Below, one piece after another: positions 34,703 through 56,584 of a stretch of DNA of 64,000 nucleotides. The stretch is from Anaerobaca lacustris (GTDB taxonomy: Bacteria; Planctomycetota; Phycisphaerae; Sedimentisphaerales; Anaerobacaceae). The stretch lies in the NCBI RefSeq assembly GCF_030012215.1, contig NZ_JASCXX010000029.1:1-64000 (forward strand), written 5' to 3'. The position numbers and the translations under genes were made by a program. The notes below the pieces were generated by a model that ran no database searches, was not told where the DNA came from, and worked only from the letters and a program-made list of their open reading frames with translations. Every line of letters begins with the position of its first letter. The stretch's first letter is position 1.

Positions 34703-35140
34703 AAAAACCCCGTCGCCACTACTACAGTACCCAGCGTGGTACGTTGGGCTTCATGGCGGACAGGGCTTAGCCTCTATTATACAGAATATCCACCCCCGTC
34801 AACATTTTGTTCGTCCCCCATCTGGGATTCCCGTACAAAACATGCCTCAGACGCAAGAAAACGGCTTATCGGGCGTCGTCAATGGCGCATACGGAGCCGG
34901 GAAATTGCCGGTTTCACCTACACCTTTCGGGCGAACGCGGGCGGAATCGTGATTCGCCCGTCCGATGGGCGGGGCGATGGCGGGCGGGAGGAAACAGGGC
35001 GGAGGAATCGCGATTGCCGCAATACGCAGCCCGCACGACGCAAGATAACATACCAGATACGAGCTGCGGCGGCCGCCGTGGGGCGGCGGGCGGGTTCAGC
35101 GCATCATCAGGAGGGAGGCGAGGGGGATTTCGATGATTCG

Positions 35141-49471: not shown

Positions 49472-50356
49472 TCATAGGAAGCGACCCTCGGCGACGGGGA
49501 CGACGCGGCCGCCGACGTTGACGTCGATGGCGTCCTGCTGGCGCTCGGCTTTCAGGCGGATCAGGGAAGGGCGGCCGATTTCGCAGCCCTGCTCGACACG
49601 CGCGTCGATTCTGGTTTCGCCGAAGTAGCGGTGCCGGACGAGATAGCCGGCCAGGCAGCCGTTGCCGCTGCCGGTGGCCGGGTCCTCTTCGATGCCGTAG
49701 GAGGGCACGAACACGCGGACGTTCAGATCGTTCCGCTCGTCGTATGTCTCGGGACAGAAGACGAGGATTCCGTCTTCGTGCTCCTGTCGCGACGCCGCGA
49801 AGTACTTGTCCCGGTTGACGCGTGCTCGTCTCACCGCATCGAGATCCTTCAGCGGGACGATGGCGAACCAAAGTCCCGTCGAGACCGCCTGGATGGGGAA
49901 ACGCGTTTCGATCTGGTCCGGATCGAGCCCGAGCAAATCTGCCATCGACGCCGGATCGGTCGTATCTCCGAAGTCGGGCGATTTCTGCTTCATCCACAGG
50001 ATGTCGCGGCCCGCCTCCTGCCCGAACGTGACCGGGATCGGCTTGAGCTTCAGGTTCAGATTCACCTGCTCGACGTCTTTGCCGATGATCTCACGGCGGA
50101 TGACGAAAGCGGTCCCCAGGGTCGGGTGCCCCGCAAAAGGCACCTCGGCAACGGGCGTGAAGATCCGCACGTCGTACCCGCCGTCACGCGGCTGATCCGA
50201 CAGGATGAACGTCGTCTCCGAGAAGTTCATCTCCCGCGCGATCTGCTGCATCTCGTCGTCGGTCAAGTCGCCGGCATTCCGGAACACCGCCAGTTGGTTC
50301 CCCGCGTACTTCCGCTCTGCGAACACGTCCACGATGTAGAAAGGGCATTCGATCAT
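49472..50356 (-). CDS. PhzF family isomerase
   Basis: 294 residues with AGGAGA upstream. Signature elements: FYIVDVFAERKYAGNQLAVF, REMNFSETTFIL (catalytic Glu near 47), FTPVAEVPFAGHPTLGTAF and IEEDPATGSGNGCLAGYL. PhzF-type proteins are diaminopimelate-epimerase-fold isomerases; only some act in phenazine synthesis and most have unknown substrates. It is the last gene of a leftward run of seven small-molecule enzymes. Confidence 0.9.
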   Translation of the reverse strand: MIECPFYIVDVFAERKYAGNQLAVFRNAGDLTDDEMQQIAREMNFSETTFILSDQPRDGGYDVRIFTPVAEVPFAGHPTLGTAFVIRREIIGKDVEQVNLNLKLKPIPVTFGQEAGRDILWMKQKSPDFGDTTDPASMADLLGLDPDQIETRFPIQAVSTGLWFAIVPLKDLDAVRRARVNRDKYFAASRQEHEDGILVFCPETYDERNDLNVRVFVPSYGIEEDPATGSGNGCLAGYLVRHRYFGETRIDARVEQGCEIGRPSLIRLKAERQQDAIDVNVGGRVVPVAEGRFL

Positions 50357-50374
50357 GGTTCATCTCCTGTCGAT

Positions 50375-51214
50375 TCACCGTGCCAGTATGGCCATGAGAT
50401 GATGCTGTCCGGCGTCCTCGGTGGTTCCGAGAGAGGCGAGCAATTCAATCGACTTGAAACCGCAGTCGGTCAGCAAGCTGCGGTATTCCTCGTCCGTATA
50501 GGCCTGCATCGTTTGTCCGTGCCGTGTCACGTTCCCCGTGGAGGCATCGATGACGAAGAACCATTGTACTGCCGTACGGCTCGCTGAGTTCCATAAGCTC
50601 TCTTCAAGCCAGATGTGCGGTGCATCGGAGAACAGCCCCGATTCTGCGGTGTGCCATGAGGGGCCTTGCCTGCCCAATTGTTCGATCGCGCTGAACCGGT
50701 GCGGCTCCAGAAGCAAGACGCCGTTGCGAGCCAGTCCTCGCCTGGCCTTGGCCAGGATCGTCCTGGCGTCGGACGGATGGAAGACATTTAGTTCCCCGAA
50801 CACCATCATCACCAAGTCGAATCCGGTTCCGAAGTCCGCCGTCCGCATGTCGCCGTGCACGTAGGTGCAGTCCGGTTGCGGCCTAGCCGCCTGTTCTCTT
50901 GCGTATTCAATCGACGCGGGAGAGTAGTCGATGCCCACACAAGAATGCCCGAGCTTCGCCAACCGGCTCGTGTATAAGCCCGGCCCGCATCCCAGGTCGA
51001 GGATCCGCGCAGGTCTGTTCCGCAGCACGTGATGGTGAATCCATCGCACGTGCTCCTCCACGATGACGAACCGGCGGCTGGCCAGGTCGTGCTCTTGCGA
51101 CAGGTGCTCGCGCAGCATCCGCCGGCTGAATCCCGGCTCGTACCAGGGAATCTTGTCGGCATCCACCCATGGTCTGGGCTGGCGCGAGCGTGTCACGATA
51201 TCGGCGATCCGCAT
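50375..51214 (-). CDS. Class I SAM-dependent methyltransferase
   Basis: 279 residues, AGAGGAGAG upstream. Motif I is ARILDLGCGPGLYTSRLA (about 74-91), followed by GIDYSPASIEYA, and FDLVMMVFGELNVF for motif IV. The substrate is unknown; the C-terminal part is beta-rich (FVIDASTGNVTRHGQTMQAYT) and may cover the active site. Fourth from the end of the seven-gene run, with 29 bases to the aminotransferase stop. Confidence 0.85.
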   Translation of the reverse strand: MRIADIVTRSRQPRPWVDADKIPWYEPGFSRRMLREHLSQEHDLASRRFVIVEEHVRWIHHHVLRNRPARILDLGCGPGLYTSRLAKLGHSCVGIDYSPASIEYAREQAARPQPDCTYVHGDMRTADFGTGFDLVMMVFGELNVFHPSDARTILAKARRGLARNGVLLLEPHRFSAIEQLGRQGPSWHTAESGLFSDAPHIWLEESLWNSASRTAVQWFFVIDASTGNVTRHGQTMQAYTDEEYRSLLTDCGFKSIELLASLGTTEDAGQHHLMAILAR

Positions 51215-51243
51215 GTTGCTCTCCTCTTGCGACGGCAGCCTGC

Positions 51244-52428
51244 TCAGGCCAGCATCTCCTTGATGATTCGGCCGAGTCGGGCGATTCCTTCTTCGATGCG
51301 GCCTTCGTCGGCGTTGGAGAAGTTCAGGCGCATGTTGTGGGTCCCGCCGCCGTCGACGAAGAAGGGCGTTCCGGGAACGAAGACGACCTTCTCCTGGGCG
51401 GCGCGTTCGAGCAACTCTATCGCGGTGAGTCGCTGCGGCAGCGTTGCCCAGATGAACATTCCGCCCTCCGGCCGGGTGAAGGTGACCTCGGGCGGGAAGT
51501 GCGCTTCCAGCGCTGCCAGCATGATGTCCTTCTGTCGCTTGTATGCCGCCCGGATCAGCGCGATGTGCTCGTCGATGTCGTGGGTCAGAAGGAACTGGTG
51601 CAGCATCCTCTGGCAGAACGAGTTCGAGTGCAGGTCGCTGGCCTGCTTGGCGACCACGAGGGCGGCCATCGTCTCACGCGAGGCGCAGACCCATCCGAGT
51701 CGCAACCCCGGTGCGACGATTTTCGAGAACGATCCGAGCAGCACGGCCTTGTCGCCCAGCTCATGGCGCATCGAAGGCCTGGCCGTCCCCTCGAAACGCA
51801 ATTCCCGATACGGGTCATCCTCGATCAGGAACGTGCCATGCTGCTTGACGATCTCGGCCAGCGCGCGTCGCTTCTCGACCGAGTAGCTGATGCCCGAGGG
51901 GTTCTGAAAGTTGATCACGGTGTGGAAGAACCGCACGCGCTGCGTCTTCAGCACGTCCGCCAGCCGGTCGATGTCCACGCCGTCGTCCAGTAGCGGCACG
52001 GGGTGAAACTGCGGCTGGTATACCGAGAACGCCTGGATCGCGCCGAGATAGCCGGGCCGCTCGATCGCGACAGCGTCCTGGCGGTCGATGAAGACCTTCC
52101 CGACCAGGTCCAGCGCCTGCTGCGAGCCGTTCGTGATCAGGATCTCGTCGGGCGAGACGTCCAGACCGTCGGTCTTGCGGTACCGCTGGGCGACGTACTC
52201 CCGCAAGGGTGCGTACCCCTCCGTCGTACCATACTGAAGGGCCGACCCATCCGCTCGCGTCAGGACGTCCGCGGCGGCCTCGGCGATGCCCTGGACGGGG
52301 AAGAAACGCGGGTTCGGCAGGCCCCCCGCAAACGAGATTACATTGGGGTCCTGCGTGACCTTCAGGATTTCGCGGACGAACGACTTGGGGATCGTACCCA
52401 TCCTCGGTGCATACGGCGACGTCATCAT
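51244..52428 (-). CDS. PLP-dependent aminotransferase, LysN/MocR-like
   Basis: 394 residues, with AGAGGAACC before the ATG. Family features: ISFAGGLPNPRFFP, LQYGTTEGYAPLREYVA, ITNGSQQALDLVGKV, ERPGYLGAIQAF, NPSGISYS, and the PLP lysine in GSFSKIVAPGLRLGW (about K238). This is fold-type I, class 1/2 aminotransferase like 2-aminoadipate aminotransferase. There is no MocR N-terminal helix-turn-helix domain. It overlaps the upstream acetyltransferase gene by four bases. Confidence 0.9.
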   Translation of the reverse strand: MMTSPYAPRMGTIPKSFVREILKVTQDPNVISFAGGLPNPRFFPVQGIAEAAADVLTRADGSALQYGTTEGYAPLREYVAQRYRKTDGLDVSPDEILITNGSQQALDLVGKVFIDRQDAVAIERPGYLGAIQAFSVYQPQFHPVPLLDDGVDIDRLADVLKTQRVRFFHTVINFQNPSGISYSVEKRRALAEIVKQHGTFLIEDDPYRELRFEGTARPSMRHELGDKAVLLGSFSKIVAPGLRLGWVCASRETMAALVVAKQASDLHSNSFCQRMLHQFLLTHDIDEHIALIRAAYKRQKDIMLAALEAHFPPEVTFTRPEGGMFIWATLPQRLTAIELLERAAQEKVVFVPGTPFFVDGGGTHNMRLNFSNADEGRIEEGIARLGRIIKEMLA

Positions 52429-52961
52429 GGTTCCTCTCGATCTGAGACAACAGGATTTAGCGTTTCCTTCTCTGATGGTTCTCGCAGTTCCTTTCCCATG
52501 AACGCGACGACGAACGGCAGGTGATCGAACTGCCTGGTCCCCGTCAGCACGAAGCCGAACCGGCGGTACCATTCCTTGAGCGGCTCATCCTCGGCGATGA
52601 TGCCGATTCCGACACGCTCCAGTCCCATCGATTCGGCCCGGGCCAGTACGTGGCGCACCAGCGCGCTGCCAAACCCTTTCGACCGATGCTCCGGCAGCAC
52701 CGCCAGGCGCTCCAGATAGCCGATCTCCGGCCGGGCCTTCTCCAGGGCCACGCACCCGCAGACCTCGGCGCCCTCTTCGAGGAAGTAGTACTGCACGCCT
52801 CGTTCGAGGTCGGCCTTGACACGGTCCTCGGTGTAGAAGGCCGGGCTCTTGGGACAGTTCTCTTCCGTCAGGCCAAATCGCTGGGCGACGGTGACACAGG
52901 CGCGCCGCAGGAGGCTCGTTACCATCGGGATGTCTTCCACGCAGGCGGGTCGGATCGTCAT
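52425..52961 (-). CDS. GNAT family N-acetyltransferase
   Basis: 178 residues from ATG 52961. The acetyl-CoA motif is LERLAVLPEHRSKGFGSALVRHVL, and the C-terminal EPLKEWYRRFGFVLTGTRQF is typical of GNAT motif B. Substrate is unknown. Its stop overlaps the aminotransferase start, and the other GNAT gene ends 11 bases upstream, so the three are co-transcribed. Confidence 0.88.
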   Translation of the reverse strand: MTIRPACVEDIPMVTSLLRRACVTVAQRFGLTEENCPKSPAFYTEDRVKADLERGVQYYFLEEGAEVCGCVALEKARPEIGYLERLAVLPEHRSKGFGSALVRHVLARAESMGLERVGIGIIAEDEPLKEWYRRFGFVLTGTRQFDHLPFVVAFMGKELREPSEKETLNPVVSDREEP

Positions 52962-52972
52962 GGTTCGTCTCC

Positions 52973-53467
52973 TCAGACTCCTGTCACTCGGCTTCTTCGC
53001 TCCAGCAGGACGACGTCGCGCCAGAGGCCGTTCATCCGGCCGATCCGCTCCCGGATACCGACGGTTCGAAAGCCGCACTGTCGGTGCAGCGCCAGGCTCG
53101 CGGTGTTCTCCGGAAAGATGCCCGCCTGGAGCATCCAGATGCCGGCCCGCTCCGAGTCTCCAATCGCCGCGTCGAGAAGGGTTCTTCCGACCCCCCGGCC
53201 GCGTGCGGATGCCTTGACGTAGACGCTGACCTCCGCCACTCCCTCGTAGACGCGGCGCCGCGAGACGGTTCCGAGCGCGATCCATCCAACCACCACGTCA
53301 CCGGACCTGGCCACAAGGCGGCAGTTCGGCAGGTGCGTCTGGTCGAACTGTTCCCACGTCGGGACGGTGTCCTCGAATGTGGCGTTGCCGGTGGCGATGC
53401 CCTCTCGCAGGATCAGGACCACTTCCGGCCAACTGGAATCGTTCATCGTTTCCACCGCGATTTCCAT
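52973..53467 (-). CDS. GNAT family N-acetyltransferase, PAT-like
   Basis: 164 residues from ATG 53467, preceded by AAAGGTGAG. Like phosphinothricin acetyltransferases it has NATFEDTVPTWEQFD, VEVSVYVKASARGRGVGRTLL (here AEVSVYV), SLALHRQCGFRTVGI and GLWRDVVLLERR. Natural substrates of this group are often methionine derivatives or related toxins. A second, unrelated GNAT gene follows directly. Confidence 0.88.
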   Translation of the reverse strand: MEIAVETMNDSSWPEVVLILREGIATGNATFEDTVPTWEQFDQTHLPNCRLVARSGDVVVGWIALGTVSRRRVYEGVAEVSVYVKASARGRGVGRTLLDAAIGDSERAGIWMLQAGIFPENTASLALHRQCGFRTVGIRERIGRMNGLWRDVVLLERRSRVTGV

Positions 53468-53565
53468 CTTCTCACCTTTCAGCAACATTCCGGTCGGGCC
53501 GGGGACCGATTCTTCGGTCGATACGATAGGCCCTGAAGGTGCCGTTCGCCAATGCACATGGCTCA

Positions 53566-54243
53566 TTACACCATGGGTTCCCTGTAGGCAACGAGAACCT
53601 CTCGGGGTTGCTCGCCGATCGGACAGGTCCGCAGGCATCGCTCGCATTCGAATACATACGGCACGTTCCCCAGCGAAGCCCGGGCCGTTCGCATTCCGTC
53701 TCTGCATCGCAGGCCGTCAAAATCATCCTTCATGATCGCGCCGGACGGACAGGCGCGCACGCACCGACCGCAGTGGTTGCAGACCTCCCGGACCACAGGC
53801 GGCTCGAACTCGACGTGGGCGTCGGTTAACACGACTCGCAGGTGAATCCAGGGGCCCCAGTCCGCATTGATGAAGAGAAAGCTGTCGCCCAGTTGCCCCA
53901 GTCCCGTTCGAGTCGCCAGCGTCTTGAACATGACGCCGCATGCTCCCGGATAGGGAAGCAGCACGCCAGCGTGTCCCTCGATGTCCAGTCTATGGCATAT
54001 CCTTTCGGCCGTCAGCCGGGCGTGCAGATCGGCCGAACAGGTCTCGCCAAGGGGCTCGGCCGGTGAGGCGAACCAGACCCACTCCAACGAATGCGTCACG
54101 TGATGCGCCACCACGATCACCGTCTGCACGTCGGGGAGAAAGGCTCTGAGGGCTTCTCTCTCCTCGGTGCCATATCGGTCGATCGATGCGAAGCCGAGCC
54201 GACAGCACTCGGCCGCCAGCACCGCCAGATCACCATGTCTCAT
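53566..54243 (-). CDS. QueG-like 4Fe-4S protein
   Basis: 225 residues, with GGAGA before the ATG. Two 4Fe-4S motifs: CNHCGRCVRACPSGAI (about 155-170) and CERCLRTCPIG (about 206-216), plus VIVVAHHVTHS and KTLATRTGLGQLGDSFLFI as in epoxyqueuosine reductase. It is shorter than QueG (usually over 350) and lacks the clear cobalamin-binding C-terminus, so it is more likely a distinct reductase of the same superfamily. Confidence 0.8.
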   Translation of the reverse strand: MRHGDLAVLAAECCRLGFASIDRYGTEEREALRAFLPDVQTVIVVAHHVTHSLEWVWFASPAEPLGETCSADLHARLTAERICHRLDIEGHAGVLLPYPGACGVMFKTLATRTGLGQLGDSFLFINADWGPWIHLRVVLTDAHVEFEPPVVREVCNHCGRCVRACPSGAIMKDDFDGLRCRDGMRTARASLGNVPYVFECERCLRTCPIGEQPREVLVAYREPMV

Positions 54244-54295: not shown

Positions 54296-55069
54296 CTACC
54301 GGCCTTTGCTGGTGCACAGGTAAGCCGCCAGGAATCCGTTCCGGTAGTCCGCCGTTTCCACGCGGAACCCGGCCCTTTCGAGAAGGCCCTCTATGATCCA
54401 GTCCCACGTGCTGTACTCTTCGCGGATGTGTGTCTCGGACTCGTTCCGTCCGCCGGGGCCCATCTGCTCACGGGTTTCGCCGATGAATCGGTCGATGTGG
54501 CGCTCGTATTCGGCGACGCCAAACGAGAAGACCACGTCGAACAGAAAGAGCCGGCCGCCGGGCTTGAGTATCGACGCCAGACGCCGCAGTCCGACCTGTT
54601 TCCAGAAATCGGGCAGGTGGTGCAGCACGGCTACCGAACTGATCGCATCGACCGGCTCGGCCCCGTGGTCGTAGGTCAGAAAGCCGCCGTGGTGGAACTC
54701 GATGTTGTCGATGCCCGCCTTGCGTGCCTTCCTGCGGGCGCGGCGGAGCATGGCCTTCGAGGCGTCCACTGCGTACACTCTGGCGCAATGTGACGCCGCG
54801 TGCAGGGCGAAGGCCCCGGTGCCGCAGCCCATGTCGATCACCGTGGCCGAGTCGTCCAGTTGCAGGCGGGCGACGATCTCCTCGGCTTCCTGCCGATAGT
54901 CTCTGAACCGCCCGTGGGTCGCGTCGTACGACCGCGCAAGGGTTGGGCTGTTGTAGTTGACGCCGCAGGGCTTCATCTCATTGTACAGCCACGCGGGCCG
55001 GCGGCCGGCCTCGCGATCTTCGGCATCGCGTCGGCAGAACTCGATATCCATTTCTCTGACCCCGATCAT
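54296..55069 (-). CDS. Class I SAM-dependent methyltransferase
   Basis: 257 residues; GAGAGG precedes the ATG, and another in-frame ATG follows six codons later. Motif I is ATVIDMGCGTGAFALHAA (about 75-92), then VYAVDASKAMLRRAR and a DAISSVAVLHHLPDF segment typical of small-molecule methyltransferases. The N-terminus is rich in Cys, Arg and Asn and unassigned. First gene of the seven-gene run, 58 bases after an intrinsic terminator. Confidence 0.85.
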   Translation of the reverse strand: MIGVREMDIEFCRRDAEDREAGRRPAWLYNEMKPCGVNYNSPTLARSYDATHGRFRDYRQEAEEIVARLQLDDSATVIDMGCGTGAFALHAASHCARVYAVDASKAMLRRARRKARKAGIDNIEFHHGGFLTYDHGAEPVDAISSVAVLHHLPDFWKQVGLRRLASILKPGGRLFLFDVVFSFGVAEYERHIDRFIGETREQMGPGGRNESETHIREEYSTWDWIIEGLLERAGFRVETADYRNGFLAAYLCTSKGR

Positions 55070-55126: not shown

Positions 55127-55165
55127 AAAAAAGCCTTTCAGGGGCCGGTGCTCCCTGAAAGGCTT
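55127..55165 (-). terminator. Intrinsic terminator upstream of methyltransferase gene
   Basis: A 13-bp perfect stem (55131-55143 with 55153-55165, AAGCCTTTCAGGG / CCCTGAAAGGCTT) with a 9-base loop, followed on the minus strand by TTTTTT. It ends leftward transcripts before the enzyme run, or lets them through if the leader controls it. Confidence 0.9.
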
Positions 55166-55198
55166 CGCTGGTTGATTCACAATCCAAAGGAATCCTTC

Positions 55199-55351
55199 TC
55201 AGGCAGCGCCCTCCAGAAAGCACATGGGCTTGGCTACAATGACGGGCGTCGTCATCGTCGCAGCGACGGGGCGCGCGGGGAGACACAGCCGGGCCACTGG
55301 GTGGCTGCTGAACTGCCTGGCGGTGTCTTTCCTGAGATGGATCATGCTCAT
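55199..55351 (-). CDS. Possible 50-residue leader peptide or small protein
   Basis: ATG at 55351 to TGA at 55199, wholly inside the candidate RNA, ending 34 bases before the terminator stem. Begins MSMIHLRKDTARQF and ends PVIVAKPMCFLEGAA. There is only a weak GAG upstream. A second in-frame ATG is at 55345. The Ala/Pro/Val-rich middle and single C-terminal Cys suggest no family. It may be unexpressed chance. Confidence 0.3.
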   Translation of the reverse strand: MSMIHLRKDTARQFSSHPVARLCLPARPVAATMTTPVIVAKPMCFLEGAA

Positions 55352-55382
55352 AATCTCGTCAAGAACAGGAACAACCGTCGAA

Positions 55383-55409
55383 TTTATAGATATGGTCCAT
55401 CCGAGTCAA
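55383..55409 (-). promoter_or_regulatory. Promoter with AT-rich upstream element
   Basis: Minus-strand TTGACT (55404-55409) and TATAAA (55383-55388) are 15 bases apart; TAAATT two bases on would give 17. Directly upstream is a T-rich stretch (about 55415-55445) like an UP element. The region lies just after the M20 deacylase stop. Confidence 0.6.
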
Positions 55410-55471
55410 GGGTAATTTACAGAAAAGAAGGAGAAAAAACACAGAATTCTCAGGCCGGTGAGGTCCATCCG

Positions 55472-56584
55472 CTATGTGAGGAAGCGCAGAAGGACGTCCT
55501 GGAAGTACGCCCGACCGCGTTCGAGGTCGACCACCGCGATGTGCTCGTCGACCTGGTGGCACTGGTTGGGCTTTCCCGGGCCGTAGATGACGATCGGGAC
55601 GCCCAGCGACGTCAGATGGGGGGCGTCGGTGGTGAAACCCACCGCGTTGGTCTGGTCCACATCGACCACCGAGCAGAAGGCCTTGACGAATTCACAGTTC
55701 GGGTCGGTTTCCATGGCCCCGACGGAGCGCTGGACGGAGATCGCCGCCTGGAAGTGGGGGACCTCGGCCGTGAGCCTGGCGAGCAGGCGTTCGAGATCGT
55801 ACCGAATTGCGTCGCAGTTCTGGCCGGGCAGGGTGCGGATATCGACGCCGATCGCGCAGCGGTCGGGGACGATGTTCATCGCCTCTCCGCCCCGGATGGT
55901 GTTGACGCTCACGGAGCACTTGCCCAAGTCCGGATGCGGCTCGAAGTCCACCTCGTAGCGTTCGAGTTCCTCCAGGACCCGCCGCATCGACTGGATCGCG
56001 TTGACCCCGCGCTGGGGCACGGAACTGTGAACGGCTCTGCCCTTGGTGGTAATCTCCAGCCAGAACAGGCCTCGATGGGCGGTGATGACCGCGAAATCCG
56101 TCGGCTCAGGTACGATCACACCGGCCGGTTTGCCCAACCAGGACAGGTCGGCCGCAAATCGCTCGATCCCCGCGCTGTCCGTCTCTTCCCCGGCGGTGGC
56201 CGCAAAGACGATGTCGCCCTGGAGTTCGACGCCGGAGGCGACGGTCTCACAGATCGCGGCGATGGCCGCAGCGGTGGGGCCCTTCATATCCACAGCGCCG
56301 CGTCCATAGATCTTTCCATCCGCCTCCCGGCCCTCGAAGGCAGGGTGGGTCCACGGGTCCTCGCCCGGTCCGACCACGTCGAGGTGGCAGACGAAGAGCA
56401 ACCCCGGTCGCGTCCCCGCCGATTTGACGTGGGCGATGACGTTGGCCCGGTTTGCGTCCCACGAATCGGTCCGGCAATCCACCCCATGCCGCTTGAAGTA
56501 GTTGGCGATGACCTCCGCCGCCGCCCGTTCCCCGGCATCGAGAGTGGACCGGGCTCGAATCAGTTGTCTGAGCAAGTCGTTCAT
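55472..56584 (-). CDS. M20 ArgE/DapE-like deacylase or peptidase
   Basis: 370 residues. Two-metal site motifs: FVCHLDVVGPG (about 64-74), YGRGAVDMKGPT (about 93-104) and TAGEETDSAG (about 128-137), then SVNTIRGGEAMNIVPD, and C-terminal VDEHIAV. Length and motifs fit ArgE/DapE. In an organism with argB, argD and argF a deacetylase may close arginine synthesis, but M20 substrates cannot be read from sequence. A consensus promoter lies so close to the ATG that the mRNA is nearly leaderless. Confidence 0.85.
   Translation of the reverse strand: MNDLLRQLIRARSTLDAGERAAAEVIANYFKRHGVDCRTDSWDANRANVIAHVKSAGTRPGLLFVCHLDVVGPGEDPWTHPAFEGREADGKIYGRGAVDMKGPTAAAIAAICETVASGVELQGDIVFAATAGEETDSAGIERFAADLSWLGKPAGVIVPEPTDFAVITAHRGLFWLEITTKGRAVHSSVPQRGVNAIQSMRRVLEELERYEVDFEPHPDLGKCSVSVNTIRGGEAMNIVPDRCAIGVDIRTLPGQNCDAIRYDLERLLARLTAEVPHFQAAISVQRSVGAMETDPNCEFVKAFCSVVDVDQTNAVGFTTDAPHLTSLGVPIVIYGPGKPNQCHQVDEHIAVVDLERGRAYFQDVLLRFLT

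Follow-up and report, generated by a model that had tools for sequence, protein, structure and literature searches.

Organization of the leader locus

The window analysed here is a 64,000-nucleotide stretch of Anaerobaca lacustris DNA. On its minus strand, a gene for an M20 peptidase (ArgE/DapE-like) ends at position 55472 and is followed by a promoter, a leader of ~250 nt ending in an intrinsic terminator and, 57 nt beyond the terminator, the start of MT1, the first gene of a seven-gene run. The features are as follows.

55411–55451, minus strand: A+T-rich (T-rich) stretch, a possible UP-like element, upstream of the −35 element
55381–55409, minus strand: sigma-70-type promoter, TTGACT-N17-TAAATT, with spacing and distance to the ATG conserved in relatives
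55199–55345, minus strand: leader reading frame of 48 codons plus TGA (MIHLRKDTARQFSSHPVARLCLPARPVAATMTTPVIVAKPMCFLEGAA, then stop), open in 35/35 compared leaders, with conserved start and stop positions
55293–55305, minus strand: hairpin within the frame, GCCAC-CCA-GTGGC, a candidate pause hairpin (covariation)
55232–55243, minus strand: candidate control codons GTC ATT GTA GCC (Val-Ile-Val-Ala), chosen by position relative to homologous leaders and by codon rarity
55194–55210, minus strand: segment 2 (GGCGCTGCCTGAGAAGG), comprising the last codons, the stop codon and the bases after it; 5′ strand of the antiterminator
55147–55163, minus strand: segment 3 (GCCTTTCAGGGAGCACC), the antiterminator's 3′ strand, which in the terminator forms the 5′ arm and the loop
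55127–55165, minus strand: intrinsic terminator, 13 bp plus T tract (covariation)
54296–55069, minus strand: MT1, a class I SAM methyltransferase (Pfam Methyltransf_25, 2.3e-23), first gene of the run; the leader also precedes its orthologues elsewhere
49472–54243, minus strand: remainder of the run, encoding a QueG-like Fe-S protein, two GNAT acetyltransferases, a PLP aminotransferase, a second methyltransferase and a PhzF-family isomerase

A preliminary description of this DNA had claimed a minus-strand promoter with a T-rich upstream element, and both are borne out. The −35 hexamer TTGACT occupies 55409–55404 and, after a 17-nt spacer, the −10 hexamer TAAATT ends at 55381; a promoter scan returned two promoter-like sites in 3 kb, with 0.4 expected. 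The 40 nt upstream of the −35 element have a mean A+T content of 67% across 25 leaders, compared with 46% for the loci, and reach 70% in the window. From the position of the promoter, transcription would start near 55374.

The RNA is structured, as had been proposed: the predicted fold of 55377–55121 has an energy of −103.7 kcal/mol, more stable than that of shuffled sequences (z = −3.9). The 13-bp terminator described ahead of the methyltransferase gene is confirmed at 55165–55127, where the tail of the window's leader scores 75.8 bits with a covariance model. A simple terminator scan had missed it, because the loop exceeds the size limit of that scan.

Two further observations concern the window at large. 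The product of one GNAT gene of the run (52973–53707, minus strand) lies near ArsN1 family A, an arsinothricin-resistance acetyltransferase, at a score below the cut-off (123 of 170 bits). At 34704–34769 (minus strand) there is an Rfam match to the DUF3800-VIII RNA (59.3 bits).

Homologous leaders in the Planctomycetota

A nucleotide search of related genomes recovered the leader within the same genus at 75–79% identity. Searching with the MT1 protein revealed Phycisphaerae loci at which the leader unit precedes the orthologous gene although the intervening DNA has diverged; taken together with covariance-model matches, the MT1 orthologue is the first gene after a leader in 17 other Phycisphaerae genomes. 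In many relatives the M20 gene also lies ahead of the leader and some genes of the run follow it; the content of the window's seven-gene run is conserved in part. Both the stems and the position of the leader are retained in relatives, contrary to the lack of conservation that the preliminary description had named as grounds for refuting its proposal.

The covariance model, R1, reaches from the frame's end as far as the T tract. It has matches in 60/89 genomes of the family and 56/397 of the class and, at a stricter cut-off, in 84/161 genomes of the order and 18/392 of the phylum. The wider leader family comprises ~104 distinct tails with a frame, of which a few are probably chance matches; nine matches at phylum level (L186, L188, L190 and L192–L197) have the appearance of chance terminators and were left out. 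Leaders associated with the isoleucyl-tRNA synthetase gene ileS match more weakly (per-genome E values of about 1e-7 to 1e-3), and the case for an origin shared with the window's leader therefore draws on common anatomy in addition to score.

A conserved promoter and an open frame

A promoter of the form TTGAx/N16–18/TAxxxT precedes the ATG in 26/35 leaders. In 22/35 the spacer is exactly 17 nt and the distance from the −10 element to the ATG is 30–37 nt, an arrangement for which shuffles give ~0.04, almost none, in a test restricted to leaders with a known promoter. In 35 leaders without an isoleucine run, the frame leading to the conserved stop is uninterrupted in every case (35/35), compared with 1/35 and 6/35 for the other two frames. 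The frame had been given as 50 codons, a length that does follow from an ATG at 55351; the conserved start, however, is the second ATG, at 55345, which leaves 48 codons.

Among homologues the frame varies in length by whole codons, and none of the three codon positions is substituted more often than the others. An open frame in every leader combined with equal substitution across codon positions indicates selection for travel of a ribosome to the stop codon rather than for a peptide, and the conservation of the frame argues that it is translated. Peptides ending in Ala-Pro before the stop had suggested a nascent arrest peptide of the TnaC type; this candidate was rejected, since the peptide drifts and RNA pairing explains the ends.

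Mutually exclusive antiterminator and terminator

The last codons, the stop codon and the bases after it read GCTCCCTAAAAGG in most leaders and GCTGCCTGAGAAGG in that of the window; this stretch is complementary to the terminator's 5′ arm plus loop (GCCTTTCAGGGAGC). Segment pairs taken from the same leader fit better than swapped pairs, the observed fit being reached in 0/20,000 permutations. In an alignment of 66 sequences fitted to the terminator only, 78% of antiterminator cells are paired, with 35 double changes, no equal in 500 shuffles (0/500) and a clear drop on sliding. In the terminator itself, 98% of cells are paired and both sides have changed in 64 cells (0/500 shuffles); for the 5-bp hairpin within the frame the values are 95% and 13 cells (0/500 shuffles). 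All three elements therefore covary across the aligned homologous leaders, with the proviso that the shuffle controls ignore relatedness and that sequences of the same family are not independent. By analogy with trp, the hairpin in the frame may pause RNA polymerase.

When leaders were folded from the last codons to the terminator loop, mimicking nascent RNA behind a ribosome stalled upstream, the antiterminator was the predicted fold in 30/30. In most full-length folds the terminator prevails over the antiterminator, and the switch must therefore be kinetic. The antiterminator of the window contains one mismatch (GCTGCC versus GGGAGC). A third pairing, between codons 4–6 (TTTAGGGA) and the stop region (TCCCTAAA), was seen in one subset (permutation p ~0.0003) and is absent in others; its approximate counterpart in the window, 55339–55333 (TCTCAGG) with 55204–55198 (CCTGAGA), is a possible pairing only.

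Control codons match the downstream gene in homologous leaders

In homologous leaders, the codons ~8–13 before the stop match the gene downstream. The 29 leaders that stand directly before ileS, or with a gene in between, contain a mean of 4.8 Ile per 10 codons, compared with 1.5 in the others. Two leaders with the aromatic runs FYFWFYF and FYFGYWFWFYY precede an aldolase-type synthase, which from its motifs we take to be the ADH synthase of the aromatic pathway. This correspondence between codons and genes was not used in building the model and so lends independent support to the mechanism in the leader family; very probably, judging from these sequences, the homologous leaders sense the amino acid that matches their gene.

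Leaders with isoleucine runs before ileS of Phycisphaerae include L128, L129, L138, L143–L146, L148–L150, L152–L154, L158, L159, L161 and L163, among others, and such attenuators of ileS in this class have apparently been undescribed until now. A GNAT or methyltransferase gene lies between leader and ileS in L153, L158, L214, L216 and L218, and L180 consists of two leaders in tandem. Runs of aromatic residues occur in L018 and L142, before aromatic-pathway genes, and likewise in L162, whose gene was not identified. Threonine-rich leaders precede asd (L171, L173, L179 and L213, of which L213 lacks a clear asd and L171 has a PhzF-family gene first). No leader was detected before the ileS of the window's own genome (G000:C11:27100-29667, L220), which has a promoter-like sequence directly upstream.

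Probable ribosome-mediated attenuation and its alternatives

Before MT1 there thus lie, in order, a promoter, a short and apparently translated frame and an intrinsic terminator, together with an antiterminator that excludes the terminator and includes the region that a ribosome would cover on finishing the frame. On this comparative footing the window's leader is most likely a ribosome-mediated transcription attenuator. Polymerase would start near 55374, with a ribosome translating the 48-codon frame behind it, presumably in a coupled manner. On reaching the stop codon the ribosome would cover segment 2, leaving segment 3 to pair with the 3′ arm of the terminator, and transcription would stop near 55127. 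Should the ribosome lag or stall over the distal control codons, segment 2 would instead be exposed for pairing with segment 3; the antiterminator so formed would block the terminator, and polymerase would continue into the operon. The direction of the response, the signal and the transcript ends are predictions for this leader.

The preliminary description had proposed a regulated leader, under attenuation controlled by a peptide or a ligand, or else an abundant small RNA. The comparison supports the first of these well, with the qualification that the signal is likely to be the position of the ribosome and not a specific peptide, whose sequence drifts. The other two are not favoured, given a conserved open frame and a stop codon inside the antiterminator. 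An independent small RNA, with read-through into the operon incidental, would agree with the strong promoter, the terminator and the stable fold; however, neither a frame open in every leader nor antiterminator covariation, a fixed place before the operon or a match between codons and genes in homologues would be expected of it, and we regard it as highly improbable. A metabolite riboswitch or T-box governing the terminator would account for a long structured leader, yet the sole other conserved structure found is the 5-bp hairpin, which lies within the translated frame. As had been claimed, the leader matches no RNA family: the Rfam search gave nothing at the gathering threshold and only chance-level scores below it, with no match to a T-box or known riboswitch. 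We consider control of this kind extremely unlikely, and grade in the same way the proposal of a conserved microprotein as the product of the 48-codon frame. The latter would explain why the frame is kept open and its ends are conserved, but substitution rates do not differ between codon positions, the C-terminal residues follow from RNA pairing and the middle of the peptide is wholly different between homologues.

The signal sensed by the window's leader

No amino-acid run was found in the leader frame of the window, whereas the runs characteristic of classic control codons are present before ileS, the aromatic synthase and asd; in the absence of such a run, the leader is not classed as an amino-acid attenuator. 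Its Val-Ile-Val-Ala codons sit at, or just upstream of, the control-codon position of homologues and include rare ones (ATT, 11% of Ile codons; GTA, 5% of Val codons). After 41 leaders, nearly all of them run-less, the first genes comprise 25 methyltransferases, ~12 GNATs, one ABC exporter and one aminotransferase; downstream of a further leader, L009, lies a gene that reads as ABC-F-like.

Because the genes behind its run-less relatives are those of methyltransferases, acetyltransferases and ABC transporters, the window's leader may sense slowed translation generally; if it is an attenuator, we give this signal about an even chance. Somewhat less weight falls on a specific response to shortage of charged tRNA for Val or Ile, read through codons such as VIVA or IIVC in a leader diverged from the isoleucine leaders of ileS. 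This reading, which we hold to be possible though rather doubtful, draws on an ~3-fold enrichment of Ile and Val at positions −14 to −7 relative to the rest of the frame in run-less leaders, on the rarity of GTA and ATT in the window and on the backbone shared with the ileS leaders. Against it, a run of identical codons is absent, none of the operon's enzymes was recognized as belonging to branched-chain amino acid metabolism, and the conserved letters GTAGCC/GTATGC could instead serve RNA structure.

Relation to known attenuators

The classic amino-acid attenuators (trp, his, leu and ilv of enterobacteria, and the leaders of Actinobacteria; PMC1262725) share with the present leader a promoter, a short frame, a hairpin in the frame, control codons before the stop and a mutually exclusive antiterminator and terminator; their control codons match the gene, as in the homologues of the window's leader. 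By contrast, the latter is run-less, stands before methyltransferase and acetyltransferase genes in a planctomycete host and has its stop codon within the antiterminator itself. A closer likeness than the trp type is PA5471.1-armZ of Pseudomonas aeruginosa (PMC13041342), in which, as in bmrB-bmrCD of Bacillus subtilis (PMC4191407), the frame is run-less and completed translation favours the terminator, as proposed here. The genes controlled in the run-less family, among them an ABC transporter and modifying enzymes, resemble the repertoire of such translation-inhibitor-sensing attenuators, although the frames of the window's group are longer (44–48 codons) and no sequence relation is apparent. 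T-boxes of ileS and other synthetase genes likewise place ileS under control of tRNA charging, as the homologous leaders appear to do; the leaders have no T-box match, however, and would sense through the codons of a translated frame.

A 2010 survey knew amino-acid leader-peptide systems only from Proteobacteria and Actinobacteria and added a case from Firmicutes (PMC2965389). In the open literature we found neither this leader family nor leader-peptide attenuation in Planctomycetes. The mechanism is known, and the leader family is apparently undescribed in Planctomycetota, a provisional statement that covers the open literature.

Leaders with the same tail and the same layout of start codon, frame and terminator also occur just upstream of tRNA arrays in other classes of the phylum (L182, L183, L184, L185 and L189). 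These arrays hold 2–13 tRNAs within the DNA examined; in the window's own genus, a leader (L151) is followed by one tRNA-Glu. From this arrangement, it is possible that tRNA operons are attenuated by such leaders.

All of this can be read together, tentatively and with less than even confidence, as one ancestral attenuator backbone through which the Planctomycetota sense translation in general, with control codons that can be exchanged. Versions with runs would act on ileS, aromatic and aspartate-family genes, while run-less versions would report translation speed to operons of modification enzymes and, in other classes, to whole tRNA arrays, thereby feeding back on tRNA supply. The leaders provide comparative evidence for ribosome-mediated attenuation, and hence for transcription–translation coupling, in a phylum from which we found no account of it. 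They also form a natural series with differing control codons on the same RNA backbone, such that specificity and switching are testable by swaps of a few codons, and they offer a functional handle on an uncharacterized methyltransferase/acetyltransferase operon.
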